Assembly (NCBI RefSeq): GCF_003351105.1
Contig: NZ_NKRG01000001.1
Coordinates: 62,001-126,000 of the forward strand
DNA from: Thermosipho africanus Ob7
GTDB lineage: Bacteria > Thermotogota > Thermotogae > Thermotogales > Fervidobacteriaceae
Length of the DNA stretch: 64,000 bases
Direction of reading: 5' to 3'
Of the stretch, positions 9,289-14,300 are shown one piece after another. Every line of letters starts with the position of its first letter. The first letter of the stretch is position 1. Under the pieces are notes generated by a model, which ran no database searches, was not told the origin of the DNA, and saw only the letters and a program-made list of their open reading frames with translations. The position numbers and the translations under genes were made by a program.

Positions 9289-9319
9289 AAAGCGTGGCGT
9301 AACGCCACGCTTTGTTTAT
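9289..9319. terminator. Bidirectional terminator between the binding protein and pyrE
   Basis: An 11-bp perfect stem (AAAGCGTGGCG 9289-9299, CGCCACGCTTT 9303-9313) has a 3-base loop. T-rich sequence follows on the plus strand; on the minus strand the stem begins 3 bases past the pyrE stop. It separates the two convergent units. Confidence 0.88.
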
Positions 9320-9882
9320 TTTTTAATGAATCTACTTCCTGGTTTTTCAAGTGGAATATTTTTTTTACAGAGAGGGCATTCATCTGGGGAGTAAATTGGA
9401 AGTTCTAATTTTATTAAATATTCATATGGAACATCGAATGGATTTGAATTAGACCTGTTTATGATTGAGCCAATACAGCAAAGGTCTCCTCCATTCTCAT
9501 TTACAATTTCTATTACTTCTTTTACTGATTTACCTGTAGTTATTACATCTTCAACTATTGCAACGCGCTCGCCTTTATTTATTTTAAATCCACGTCTGAG
9601 AGTCATAAGGCCGTTTTCTCTTTCTGCAAAAATATTTCTAATATTAAGGTATTTTGCAACCGAGTATGCTAGGTGTATTCCTCCCATTGCAGGACCAATT
9701 ATTAAATCTGGTTTGTATTTTTCTATCTTTTCGGCAAGCATTTTTGCTACCATGTCACCGTATTCGGGAAATTCAAAGAGCCTTGCGCATTGGACATATT
9801 TTTCAGAGTGATTTCCTGATGAAAGTAAAAAATGTCCCGTCAAAAGTGCCCCCGTTTTTTCAAGGATTTCTTTTATTTCCAT
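9316..9882 (-). CDS. pyrE: Orotate phosphoribosyltransferase
   Basis: 188 residues. Transfers ribose-5-phosphate from PRPP to orotate to give OMP. Seen: [15 protein letters not shown] near residue 18 (orotate side), and the PRPP-binding loop [15 protein letters not shown] near 107. A C-terminal CPLCKK pair (Cys residues near 168 and 171) may bind metal or simply be a local feature. The ATG at 9882 has GGAGG 7 bases upstream. It overlaps the end of pyrF by 10 bases and is the last gene of the pyr operon. Confidence 0.95.
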
Positions 9883-10484
9883 TTTAATTCCTCCTTGATT
9901 TTTTCTATTTTTTCTTTAGGATTTTTACTGAGGTAGATTTCTCTACCTAAAACTGCAAAGTCTGCAATATCCTTTATTTGATCCAATGTAATGATATCTT
10001 TTTGATCATCAGCTTTGACTTGCATTCTTATGCCTGGAACTAAAAATTTGCCACTGAGTTTTTTTCTTAAATTTATTGCCCAACGGCCAGGAAGAACAAA
10101 CGAGCTTTTTATGTTTTCAAGCTCTTCTATTGTTTTTAGATAGTCTGATAATTCTCCAACTTGAGAAGTTAGTTTGACTACTGAAAAAATGATTTTTTCT
10201 GTTGAATCAAGAGCTGCCTTAACACTTTCAATTCCCGCGGCACTATGAACTGTAAAACCTATTATAGCTGGATGATCCCAGCTTTTAATTGATCTAGAAA
10301 CTGTTGAAGGAATATCGCAAAATTTCAAGTCTAATATTACTTTGATGTTTCTCTTTTCAAATTCATCTAGAATTTTTTTGCCGAAAATAGCCAAGTTATG
10401 TCCTACCTTTACAGTATCAAAACTTCCGTATTTATCAATGAATTCTAAGGGGCTTTCCATATCCAAACTCAATACAGGTATCAT
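9873..10484 (-). CDS. pyrF: Orotidine 5'-phosphate decarboxylase
   Basis: 203 residues, a short-type TIM barrel. Decarboxylates OMP to UMP, the last step of the pathway. Seen: substrate-binding VLSLDME at the N-terminus, [10 protein letters not shown], the catalytic [11 protein letters not shown] near residues 52-62 (Asp-Lys-Asp charged network), and the phosphate-binding end VPGIRMQ and [13 protein letters not shown]. It overlaps pyrD by 4 bases and pyrE by 10 bases, consistent with translational coupling. Confidence 0.95.
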
Positions 10485-11299
10485 TTTTCCACTCCTTTCA
10501 AATATTTTCCAAGTTCTTCAATAACTTGTGGATCTTTAAATAACGCGCTTCCTATTGAAATAGCATTTGCTCCTACTAAAAGGAAATCATCCACATCTTT
10601 CTTTGTATATATACCTCCTGAAGCTATTATGTATATATCTTTTAGAACTTTTCTAACTTCATATATTGCGCGTAATGCTATAGGTTTTAAAATTGGTCCT
10701 GAAAGTCCTCCCGTAACTATTTTTCCATCTTTTATTAGAAGACCTCTAACACAGTTTATTAGTGTAAGTCCGTTCCATCCAAATTCTTTTACTTTTTTTG
10801 ATAAGACTTCAACAAAATTTCCTTCAATACTTAATTTTGCAATTAAAAATGAATTTGGAAGTATTTTTCGAACATTTTCAAGAATTTCTTGCCATTCATT
10901 TACGTCTGAAAGAATTGAAAGCCCGCCTTTTTTTACGTTTGGACAAGAAAAGTTAAATTCAATTGCCTCAAATTTTTTAGCGTATGGAGCTATTTTTTCT
11001 GCTATTTTTATGTATTCATCTTTACTATCTCCTCCAAGACTAAGTATTGTTTTTGTTTCTTTAAGTACGAATTTTTCAATGTTTGATATAACGTATTCTA
11101 TTCCAGGATTTTCAAGACCGATACTATTAATTATATAGTTTTCCGAATTTTCCATTCTTTTTGATTTGTTTCCTGGTTTTGGATTTAAAGTTATGGTTTT
11201 TAACGTATATGCACCTACATATTTTGGGTTTATAAGGCTTAGATATTCTCCACTTCCTCCCGGTCCAGAAGCTATAACTAGAGGCGGGTTTAGATTCAT
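10481..11299 (-). CDS. pyrD: Dihydroorotate dehydrogenase catalytic subunit (PyrD type 1B)
   Basis: 272 residues. FMN-dependent oxidation of dihydroorotate to orotate. Seen: NPPLVIASGPGGSGEYL at the N-terminus, FNFSCPNVKKGG near residue 125 carrying the class 1 active-site Cys, and the FMN-phosphate site IIASGGIYTKKD near 220 with ANAISIGSALF. Pairing with PyrK next door identifies the NAD-linked B type heterotetramer. GGAGG lies 8 bases before the ATG, and the gene overlaps pyrK by 4 bases. Confidence 0.95.
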   Translation of the reverse strand: MNLNPPLVIASGPGGSGEYLSLINPKYVGAYTLKTITLNPKPGNKSKRMENSENYIINSIGLENPGIEYVISNIEKFVLKETKTILSLGGDSKDEYIKIAEKIAPYAKKFEAIEFNFSCPNVKKGGLSILSDVNEWQEILENVRKILPNSFLIAKLSIEGNFVEVLSKKVKEFGWNGLTLINCVRGLLIKDGKIVTGGLSGPILKPIALRAIYEVRKVLKDIYIIASGGIYTKKDVDDFLLVGANAISIGSALFKDPQVIEELGKYLKGVEK

Positions 11300-11943
11300 A
11301 GTATATCCCTCCTAAATATTGGTCCGTCTGTACAGACGTGCTTTACACCATCTTTTGTAAAAACGGCACAGCTTTTACAAGCGCCAATACCACAACCCAT
11401 ATATTCTTCAAGTGATACAAAAACATTTTTGGATTCAATGTTTGAAAGAACAAATTCTTCCATTTGTTTTGAACCACTTACTAGGTACCAATCGTATGGC
11501 TTTAAAGTTTTTATTTTTTTGGAAAAATCTTCATTCCCAACTACGCTTTCAAAAGGAAGTTCGAAATTTATCTTGCTTTTGCTTCCAATAAGTACATTAC
11601 AAGAATATTTTTCATGTAAAAGATTTGCTAATGTAATGCATGTCGGAGATGCTATAACTATGCCATTGCCTGCAGGTGGGATGAATTTATTACCTAATGG
11701 AAAGTGGGCTTTAAATTTTTTTTCTTCGAAGACGATATATTTTGTTCCTTTTCCTTTTATCTGAACTGATACAGCTATATTGCTTTTCCATGTTCCAAGT
11801 ATAAAAGGTTTTCTTGTTAGTGAGGGAGTTTGAATCATTATAAATTGACCTTCATCAAATTTAAATTTTTCATTAAATGTAACTATAAATGTATCTTCAT
11901 TTATTTGAATTACATCTTTCTTAGTCAAATAAGTATTCTCCAT
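11296..11943 (-). CDS. pyrK: Dihydroorotate dehydrogenase electron-transfer subunit
   Basis: About 215 residues. Carries FAD and a [2Fe-2S] cluster and passes electrons from PyrD to NAD+. Seen: the FAD-binding strand TRKPFILGTWK, the nucleotide-binding VIASPTCITLANLL stretch, and the C-terminal cluster ligands CGIGACKSCAVF plus a fourth Cys in VKHVCTDGP. Two ATG codons are possible: 11964 lies before the GGGGG ribosome site, while ATG 11943 has it 7 bases upstream and was chosen. The 5' end overlaps the end of pyrC by 23 bases. Confidence 0.92.
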   Translation of the reverse strand: MENTYLTKKDVIQINEDTFIVTFNEKFKFDEGQFIMIQTPSLTRKPFILGTWKSNIAVSVQIKGKGTKYIVFEEKKFKAHFPLGNKFIPPAGNGIVIASPTCITLANLLHEKYSCNVLIGSKSKINFELPFESVVGNEDFSKKIKTLKPYDWYLVSGSKQMEEFVLSNIESKNVFVSLEEYMGCGIGACKSCAVFTKDGVKHVCTDGPIFRRDIL

Positions 11944-13066
11944 TCCAAAACCCCCATTTTCCATTTATTTTTACTCCAATAACTTTACCTTTTAATTTCA
12001 TACCATCAAAAGCGCAATTTTTTCCTTTACTGTAAAATTTTTTGCTGTCAACTATAAATTCTTGGTTTAAATCTACAACTACAAAATTTTCTGAATCGAA
12101 TTTTGGCTTTATTTTTAATCGTCTTCTTGGACTGTCACAAAGTTTGTTAATTACGATCATAAGGTCTTCAATGGCAGTATAAAAGGCAGAAAATGCAATT
12201 TCAATATTTGAAGTACCATATGGATCTTTTTCAAAGTCATTTTTTTTGTCAGGGTGTGGTGCATGATCAGTGGCAAGGATATCTATATAATTGTTTTTTA
12301 CAGCCTCAATTAAAAATTCTCTTGTTTGTTGGTCAGCAAGGGGTGGGTTGATTTTAAAGTTTGAATTTTTGATATGCTCATTTGTTAATAAAAGGTGGTG
12401 TGGAGTTACTTCACAGGTTATATTTGCATATTTTTTTAGAAATTTTATCATTTCCAGTGTGTAAATCGATGAAATATGCTGGATATGAAAGTCTCTAAAA
12501 CCAAATTCAATCCCTGTTAATATAGTTCTAGCTACTGCTACAGCTTCATTTGTTACTGGCCGTTTGGGCAGATTTTCTATTTTTTTGTAAAAAATTCCCG
12601 GGTGTTCAAACATTTGACTGTGGTCAAGAAGAAGGTGTGGTTTTTTCTTTGAAAAATTTTCTACTAACTCATTGTAATTGTATTCTATGCCATCTGTTGA
12701 ATAACATAAAATGTCTATGTTGTTTGGTTCTTGTGAGCCAAAAAATGATGTTGTCCTGTAAAATTTAACATATGGATTTTCAGAAAGTTTTTTGTGTCTT
12801 TCATGAACATTACTATTTTCTAGTCTTGGTTTTGTGTTTGGTTGTATTAGAACTTCTGAAAAACCACCAGCTATACAAGCTTTTTTTAAAGATTCATAAT
12901 CTTCTTGACCTTCTAATAGCCTTACATGGGTGTGAAAATCAAAAAATGTTGGAATGACAACTAAATTTTCAGAGTATATGTTTTTTGGTAGAGAAATTTC
13001 TTCATAGAAAAGCTTTTTTTGGTAAGGATCATACACTTTTACCGAAATAAATTTCACCTCCCCCAC
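11921..13066 (-). CDS. pyrC: Dihydroorotase
   Basis: About 375-381 residues, amidohydrolase superfamily. Cyclises carbamoyl-aspartate to dihydroorotate. Seen: the zinc motif FDFHTHVR near residue 42, HIQHISS near 198 and the catalytic TDHAPHPDKK near 268. It is the first structural gene of the pyr operon, behind the leader described below. The start is uncertain. The coordinate given uses GTG 13066, but this and the GTG at 13057 lie in or before the Shine-Dalgarno GGGGGAGG (13064-13057). The in-frame codon 8 bases after GAGG is ATT at 13048, followed by TCG GTA AAA. The next canonical codon, GTG 13036, is 20 bases from the ribosome site. Confidence 0.92.
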   Translation of the reverse strand: MGEVKFISVKVYDPYQKKLFYEEISLPKNIYSENLVVIPTFFDFHTHVRLLEGQEDYESLKKACIAGGFSEVLIQPNTKPRLENSNVHERHKKLSENPYVKFYRTTSFFGSQEPNNIDILCYSTDGIEYNYNELVENFSKKKPHLLLDHSQMFEHPGIFYKKIENLPKRPVTNEAVAVARTILTGIEFGFRDFHIQHISSIYTLEMIKFLKKYANITCEVTPHHLLLTNEHIKNSNFKINPPLADQQTREFLIEAVKNNYIDILATDHAPHPDKKNDFEKDPYGTSNIEIAFSAFYTAIEDLMIVINKLCDSPRRRLKIKPKFDSENFVVVDLNQEFIVDSKKFYSKGKNCAFDGMKLKGKVIGVKINGKWGFWNGEYLFD

Positions 13067-13074
13067 AGCTAAAG

Positions 13075-13104
13075 AAAAAGGGGCCCAATAGTGAGCCCCT
13101 TTTT
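13075..13104 (-). terminator. Terminator in the pyr operon leader (candidate attenuator)
   Basis: On the minus strand a perfect 10-bp stem (AAAAAGGGGC 13104-13095, GCCCCTTTTT 13084-13075) has a 10-base loop and a following T run. It lies upstream of pyrC and downstream of the pyr promoter, so it would end transcription before the first structural gene unless overridden. No plus-strand gene ends here, so it is not a terminator for anything on that strand. Confidence 0.8.
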
Positions 13105-13157
13105 CAAGGATTTATGTGAAAAATATTAATTTTTAATTTTTGCTCGAAAGTTTTCAT
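13104..13157 (-). CDS. Putative pyr operon leader peptide (17 aa)
   Basis: ATG at 13157 opens a 17-codon frame (MKTFEQKLKINIFHINP) that stops with TGA at 13106-13104. The ribosome site GGGGGG (13171-13166) is 8 bases upstream, the same spacing seen for most genes here. The last base of the stop codon is the first base of the attenuator stem, so a terminating ribosome would cover the 5' arm of the hairpin. The codons are very A/U-rich with a U run just before the stop, as in UTP-sensed leaders such as enterobacterial pyrBI. Function is inferred from arrangement only; expression is not shown by sequence. Confidence 0.55.
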   Translation of the reverse strand: MKTFEQKLKINIFHINP

Positions 13158-13190
13158 TTTTATAACCCCCCACTAAACTTACCTTATAAT

Positions 13191-13219
13191 TTTATATCAT
13201 ATTTGTGGAGATTTATCAA
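13191..13219 (-). promoter_or_regulatory. Promoter of the pyrimidine operon
   Basis: Minus-strand TTGATA (13219-13214) and TATAAA (13196-13191) are separated by 17 bases, with TGA just before the -10. Transcription would begin near 13184, giving a leader of about 120 bases that contains the 17-codon frame and the terminator hairpin before pyrC. Confidence 0.7.
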
Positions 13220-13268: not shown

Positions 13269-14300
13269 ATGAGGGTATTTTTAAGCGTGGAAGAGTTAAA
13301 AAGAGTGTTAAAGTTAATTGATAAAACAGTTGGAACTGTTGAAAAAACAAATAGAATAGTTGGATTTAAATATGAAAACGGATTTTTAAATCTTTATGGT
13401 AGTGATGGATGTCTGAGTTTAAAGGCAAAAGTTTCAGAAATGAATCCGACAACTCTTTCTTTTTCTGTTCCATTAGATATATTAAAATTTTTTGTATTTG
13501 AACTCTCGGGAAACATCTCAATTTATTCTGATGGGAATTATGTTGTATTAAAAGCAAAAGATGAGAATTTGAAATTAAAGACAGAACGTTTTTCTTTCAA
13601 GAATTTTGAAGAAAGATATGAGGAATTAATTAACGTTCCTATAAATGTATTTGTAAATGATCTAGATTTTGTATCAAGTCACTTGGAAGAAGGAAGTTAC
13701 GTAGATTTTTACTTTGGAAATAAAGTAAGAATGGTAGCAGAAAATGGCAGTATCATTAATTATGTTGTAAGGGATAAGAAAAGTAAAGAATATTCATGGA
13801 GAATTCCTTATTATTCAGCACGGCATTTGATAAAGGCTTTATCTGAAATAAAAAGTGGAGAATTAATTGTTGGTGAAGGACTTAATAAATTGGTTTTGTC
13901 ATCTGATTATTTGTTTAATGTCTGTGGTGAAGAGCTCGATCACTTGGAGCTTGTACCATTAGAAAATGAAATTGAAAAGTCTGAAGAATTTTTAAGGGTT
14001 AGTTTAAAAAGTATAAGACGATTTTTAAGAAGAGCTATGATTTCTGGAAGATATTCAAGGCTAAAAATATTTGGTAATGAAAAAGGGCTTTATTTTTATG
14101 CTTTTTCTGAAAATATGGAGTATAGAGGGCATATAGATATTAGTAGTAAATACATTTTCCAAACAACAACAAACGCCTATTTTTTAAGAAGCGCTTTGAA
14201 TAGAATAGGTAGTGAAACATTATTGTTTTTCAAAGGCGAAAAGTATTTAATAATATCAACTATGCAAAAAAGAAGATTTATTCTTCTTCCACTTTTATAA
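13269..14300 (+). CDS. Divergent DNA polymerase III beta (sliding clamp)-like protein
   Basis: 343 residues, close to the usual 366 of DnaN. The overall pattern fits a three-domain clamp: an N-terminal [16 protein letters not shown] segment, repeated beta-rich blocks, and a C-terminal [27 protein letters not shown] segment ending RRFILLPLL, which resembles the DnaN tail (ending in a MPIRL-type motif). Similarity is weak elsewhere, so it may be a second, specialised clamp paralogue rather than the replicative DnaN. ATG 13269 has AGAGG 8 bases upstream. Its 3' end overlaps ispG by 23 bases in convergent orientation. A TTGAGT...TAGAAT pair with 16-base spacing at 13224-13251 may be its promoter. 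Confidence 0.6.

Follow-up and report, generated by a model that had tools for sequence, protein, structure and literature searches.

The best-known examples of pyrimidine biosynthesis attenuated by ribosome coupling, with no regulatory protein, come from enterobacteria, where a short leader frame (pyrL) and an intrinsic terminator precede the pyrBI operon of E. coli and Salmonella, and a ribosome that follows RNA polymerase closely disrupts the terminator. In Bacillus, the terminator that precedes the pyr operon is controlled by PyrR, and the PyrR box lies on an anti-antiterminator. PyrR-dependent repression in Mycobacterium is translational, with the box over or beside the ribosome site, and in the model for Thermus PyrR controls a leader peptide that is coupled to a terminator. 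We know of no purine operon that was previously recognized as a PyrR target. In E. coli, terminators a few bases past a stop codon are nearly fully repressed by coupled ribosomes and regain their activity when translation is removed or uncoupled; terminators less than about 100 bp from the start codon usually escape repression unless pausing enforces coupling (PMC4824070). No description of this kind of pyr leader attenuation was found for Thermotogota in the open literature.

Here, we describe the pyrC leader in the window, which is the whole stretch of 64,000 nucleotides from Thermosipho africanus Ob7 that was analysed. Read along the minus strand, the region in front of a pyrC-K-D-F-E operon contains first a promoter, then GGGGGG as a ribosome site, next a frame of 17 codons, and finally a strong intrinsic terminator. 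A sequence-only reading had described these four leader elements, with the promoter at 13219-13191, and they were confirmed on the minus-strand sequence. The leader comprises the following features.

13219-13214, minus strand: -35 element TTGATA, from sequence (TTGAT kept in four of four genus genomes)
13191..13199, minus strand: extended -10 element TGATATAAA, from sequence (TGA-TATAAA, with the hexamer TATAAA at 13196-13191)
13166..13171, minus strand: leader Shine-Dalgarno (SD) of six G (GGGGGG), with an anti-SD duplex energy of -10.5 kcal/mol
13104..13157, minus strand: 17-codon leader frame MKTFEQKLKINIFHINP, from sequence (ATG 13157-13155, TGA 13106-13104)
13119..13125, minus strand: UAUUUUU stretch, proposed as a place of pausing (not kept in G002 and G003)
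13092..13105, minus strand: 5' arm of the terminator, from sequence and RNA folding
13074..13087, minus strand: 3' arm of the terminator, which ends in UUUUUC and is followed by UUU, from sequence and RNA folding

The -35 and -10 elements are separated by a spacer of 17 bases, and transcription probably starts near 13184. Within the genus, AAATATGATATAA in the extended -10 element is invariant across the four genomes, as is the GGGG core of the leader SD. Runs of six G occur near the starts of 2.7% of the genes in the genome. RNA folding indicates that the leader SD is weakly structured, with an opening cost of 0.9 kcal/mol at 70 C. An automated scan for promoters and terminators, the criteria of which are strict, listed neither the leader promoter nor the terminator. 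Known Rfam riboswitches or leaders had no match at gathering score in the window. As to an amino-acid attenuator of the trp or his type, no codon run is shared by the peptides MKTFEQKLKINIFHINP, MYKIYSNKSKYVKNKS, and MKILFFNKRENKYYIKNT.

The operon and the gene that bounds the leader region are arranged as follows.

13269..14300, plus strand: divergent gene bounding the leader region, without a match in NCBIfam or Pfam
13054..13064, minus strand: pyrC SD GGGGGAGGUGA, from sequence
11921..13066, minus strand: pyrC (dihydroorotase), open frame from GTG 13066 (NF006840, 635 bits)
11296..11964, minus strand: pyrK-like electron transfer subunit (PF10418; NF000798 below cut-off)
10481..11299, minus strand: pyrD (NF005574, 210 bits, under its cut-off of 269)
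9873..10484, minus strand: pyrF (TIGR01740, over cut-off)
9316..9882, minus strand: pyrE (TIGR01367, over cut-off)

Because the neighbouring gene is transcribed divergently and the terminator is separated from pyrC by just some 25 bases, transcription of the operon must cross the terminator. This argument derives from gene layout and is independent of the statistics presented below. The true start of pyrC is likely the AUU at 13048-13046 (minus strand), judging from the SD spacing and from G003 and G002, two other genomes of the genus. AUU or AUA, preceded by a strong SD, appears to serve as the start codon of pyrC in the genus, and pyrC of G003 has no in-frame ATG, GTG, or TTG before codon +60, which is beyond the HTH metal-binding motif.

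The terminator hairpin, GAAAAAGGGGCUCA-CUAU-UGGGCCCCUUUUUC (13105-13074), has a 14 bp stem and an energy of about -22 kcal/mol at 37 C and -10.8 kcal/mol at 70 C; it finishes in the U-tract because five A-U pairs sit near the stem base. The leader TGA had been said to meet this stem, and it indeed overlaps the first two stem bases when the stem is counted from G13105. Folding predicts that a ribosome at the stop codon, with its front 11 bases into the stem, would abolish the hairpin, in keeping with the masking of the 5' arm that the sequence-only reading envisaged; moving the front back by 9 bases would leave a hairpin of -17.7 kcal/mol. Before the 3' arm is made, RNA folding yields weak hairpins only. 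The same reading had suggested that the G runs of the leader and of the pyrC SD could form alternative folds with the C-run of the terminator. In RNA folding, such pairings are not competitive with the terminator, and pairing of the leader G run with the C-run was rejected, given that the minimum-energy fold retains the 14-bp terminator. Contact between stop codon and stem was likewise rejected as a diagnostic: among 31 gene-end terminators in 464 kb of the genome, 29% start no more than 2 bases from a stop codon. If transcription does end efficiently at these gene-end sites, a ribosome on a stop codon must sometimes fail to prevent it in this organism.

Conservation was evaluated in four genomes of the genus, the window genome (G000), G001, G002, and G003; G000 and G001 are near-identical, so that three leaders are independent. 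The pyrC proteins of the genus are 70-96% identical to that of the window. The TTGAT...TGATATAA promoter, the G run, the ATG, and the frame are kept in all four leaders, with frames of 17 (G000), 17 (G001), 18 (G002), and 16 (G003) codons, and, despite insertions in the leaders, the first base of the stop codon always lies 1 or 2 bases ahead of the stem. Both the frame and its stop-stem junction, the features that the sequence-only reading had proposed comparing, are thereby kept in four of four genomes. Neither G002 nor G003 encodes a leader peptide related to the one in G000. Conservation of the ribosome site, the frame, and the stop position, but not of the peptide, points to the act of translation rather than its product as what matters.

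An SD-led frame that reaches the stem this well arose in 0.2-1.5% of dinucleotide shuffles per leader for the three independent leaders (Fisher combined p 3.6e-5). The openness of the frame given its start codon was not significant (p 0.11-0.41 each, combined 0.18) because the leader frame is short. It could be supposed that the frame encodes a small protein and has a terminator to itself, with pyrC served by a separate promoter, and the strong SD and terminator do resemble those of ordinary genes. This is extremely improbable, however, since the peptide is not conserved in the genus and the roughly 25 bases from terminator to pyrC leave no room for a promoter, none being found there by the scan.

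The U-rich stretch at 13125-13119, which had been proposed as a site where polymerase pauses, did not withstand the comparison. The U-run itself (13123-13119) is present in the near-identical G000 and G001 only and is absent from G002 and G003, whose frame regions contain 23-28% U. Across the pyr leaders, U content is no higher in those lacking a PyrR box than in those carrying one, and a U-run of at least five arises in 8% of composition shuffles. A U-rich pause was therefore rejected as a shared feature, as it lacks both conservation in the genus and U enrichment. A CCU at the end of the frame (window 13109-13107, minus strand) is invariant in the four genomes, and the residue that it encodes differs (Pro, Ser, Thr). 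This CCU before the leader stop codon might be a nucleotide-sensitive pause or another nucleotide-level signal, with its conservation resting on three independent sequences, too few to carry the pause reading.

A wider test covered the pyr leaders of the order that are free of PyrR boxes (n = 17), using a shuffle-based search for SD-led frames. A frame that reaches or crosses the terminator was detected at p < 0.06 in 15 of the 17 leaders (combined p 3e-14); the pyrB leader frames of G022 and G020 (g6) lacked clear support (p 0.26 and 0.73, respectively). The stop codon is likewise at the stem in genus g8. Among genera g6, g10, and g11, the frame crosses the terminator in 9 of 13 leaders, as in pyrL, and ends from 5 bases before to 21 bases after the pyr start; in the remaining leaders it ends inside or near the hairpin. 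The frame of the Pseudothermotoga-like genus g10 crosses two tandem terminators, and its stop codon overlaps the pyrB start codon. Two families at a greater distance have a frame that enters the terminator before pyrC (G042, p 0.020; G093, p 0.001). The pyrC leader frame of G025 was not clearly supported (p 0.60).

Two further arrangements were observed before pyrB. In the Thermotoga-like genomes (L072-L079), none of which has PyrR, the terminator before pyrB contains in its loop the stop codon of the upstream gene. The pyrB genes of the family are also preceded by a TGGGGGG ribosome site (L080-L083, L085, L088-L091, L093, L095-L097).

The window genome encodes PyrR, and the gene and the boxes that are associated with it are located as follows.

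G000:C2:114190-114705: pyrR (NF003548, 233 bits, over the cut-off of 218)
G000:C1:283894-283933 (L119): PyrR box of uraA, covering the permease SD
L055 at about 1487-1760, L102 (G000:C3:111269 onward), L056, L063, and L064: purE leader boxes

PyrR boxes were identified with a covariance model (R1) that was built from 18 boxes, some of them from pyrC leaders, and that includes two fully paired positions of the lower stem at which both sides change. R1 finds one or two boxes in each of the 28 genomes that encode PyrR; of the 13 genomes without PyrR, 12 yield no box, the exception being a 60% complete genome. It gives no credible match in any of the four pyrC leaders of the genus (best match in those loci, E about 1). 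Rfam at gathering score reports no PyrR hairpin in the window pyrC leader; it also gave no match in the other leader loci searched, and so missed boxes in pyrC leaders that were among those used to build R1. A PyrR-binding anti-antiterminator, which the sequence-only reading had named as a contrary sign, was seen in the pyrC leader with neither Rfam nor R1. The distinction from PyrR control drawn in that reading stands in that the pyrC leader has no box; it falls short in that PyrR is encoded in the genome and sister genera pair a box with a similar frame.

The two boxes of the window genome precede the uracil permease gene uraA and a purine operon that comprises purE, purC, and then purQ and purL, as identified by sequence. 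The 3' arm of the permease box contains the permease SD, an arrangement that recurs across two families (L119, L054, L057-L060, L120-L138) and suggests that PyrR directly represses translation of the uracil uptake gene. The purE box covers the SD of a leader frame of 21-31 codons, which enters or crosses an intrinsic terminator, in four of four genus genomes, suggesting that PyrR controls purine synthesis in the genus. In the Fervidobacterium-like genus, pyrC is preceded by a leader frame of 73-97 codons that passes through the terminator, and a PyrR box begins at the start codon of this frame; PyrR would stop leader translation there and thereby uncouple the ribosome. Across the pyrC leaders of the Fervidobacterium-like genus and a sister genus (L024, L025, L027-L030, L065, L067), the box is at or near the start of a frame of 65-97 codons, which passes the terminator and in many cases stops at the start of pyrC. 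The window pyrC leader has this chassis minus the PyrR switch.

The boxes bear on an alternative in which the signal acts on initiation of leader translation, with the ribosome site blocked by a repressor, either PyrR bound at some non-standard site or a different factor, so that the terminator forms when pyrimidines are plentiful. PyrR is available in this genome, its boxes co-occur with it in all 28 PyrR genomes, and they are positioned at the leader start codon of Fervidobacterium-like pyrC and over the leader SD of purE in this very genus. We nevertheless consider such a block unlikely at pyrC, where the covariance model has no credible match in the four leaders and the leader SD is the weakly structured one described above. 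Still less likely is a fixed damper, in which frame and terminator would give constant partial read-through in response to no nutrient. The leader has no conserved sensor element and stops beside terminators are common in the genome, as a damper would allow, but the layout of leader frame and terminator recurs before pyr genes in many genera while its sequence changes, and it is coupled to PyrR boxes in sister genera.

We regard it as very likely that the pyrC leader is a translation-coupled transcription attenuator as such, the leader frame presumably being translated and termination regulated. The best full explanation, a coupled attenuator for which polymerase speed set by pyrimidine nucleotides is the likeliest signal, appears probable. 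That UTP or CTP in particular is the signal, sensed via polymerase speed, is nearly as likely as not and is put forward tentatively. In such an attenuator, polymerase would start near 13184, and a ribosome would load at the G run and read the 17 codons. A ribosome at or near the stop codon when polymerase completes the hairpin would mask the 5' arm and allow read-through into pyrC-K-D-F-E, and a lagging ribosome would let the hairpin form and the RNA end near 13072. When nucleotides are short, a slow polymerase would permit the ribosome to catch up and the operon would be read; shortage of pyrimidine nucleotides would be the natural cause of such slowing at this operon. The layout, its conservation, the obligatory terminator passage, the masking geometry, and the lack of a PyrR box are features of the sequence itself. 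Counting against coupled attenuation, start-near terminators in E. coli need pausing for repression (PMC4824070), and no pause site was identified in the pyrC leader. The lack of conservation of the U-rich stretch, the frequency of stop codons beside ordinary gene-end terminators, and a genus sample of three independent leaders weigh on the same side. By analogy, escape of start-near terminators without pausing would suit an attenuator that is off by default and opened by slowed polymerase.

We lean toward the broader view that Thermotogota pyr operons and one purine operon share an exchangeable chassis, a leader frame up to or through a terminator, with differently wired sensors. At Fervidobacterium-like pyrC and at purE in the genus, the sensor would be a PyrR hairpin placed on the ribosome site or the start codon of the leader, and the chassis would operate without a protein sensor at pyrC here and at pyrB and pyrC in Pseudothermotoga-like genera. 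If this is true, PyrR in the genus controls purine synthesis and uracil uptake and not pyrimidine synthesis. Leader frames tied to terminators across a distant thermophilic phylum would mean either that this logic is much older or that it originated repeatedly. The occurrence of the same layout with and without a PyrR hairpin in one phylum makes sensor swapping directly testable, and the layout also makes transcription-translation coupling in thermophiles measurable.

Like pyrBI, the pyrC operon is preceded by a short leader frame, here predicted to be translated, and an intrinsic terminator, and we propose the same disruption of that terminator by a closely following ribosome. Frames in g6, g10, and g11 run through the terminator like pyrL, whereas the pyrC leader frame stops at the stem base with a two-base overlap and does not traverse it; pyrL is reportedly 44 codons long, as opposed to 17 here. 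Unlike pyrBI, the locus has no conserved U-rich pause tract, its leader sequence is unrelated, the operon is pyrC-K-D-F-E, and PyrR is encoded in the genome. The pyrBI logic invoked by the sequence-only reading accordingly holds for the layout, in this leader and its relatives, and not for the pause tract; because this defining tract is lacking, we class the leader as similar to pyrBI in its proposed working but outside that system. With Bacillus it shares a terminator before the pyr operon and an encoded PyrR, but the pyrC leader has no PyrR box, antiterminator, or anti-antiterminator, and boxes in the phylum lie on ribosome sites or leader-frame starts instead of on an anti-antiterminator. 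The pyrC leader of the genus also differs from the Mycobacterium and Thermus systems in having no PyrR box, whereas the leader-peptide control proposed here for Fervidobacterium-like pyrC and for purE in the genus is like that of the Thermus model.
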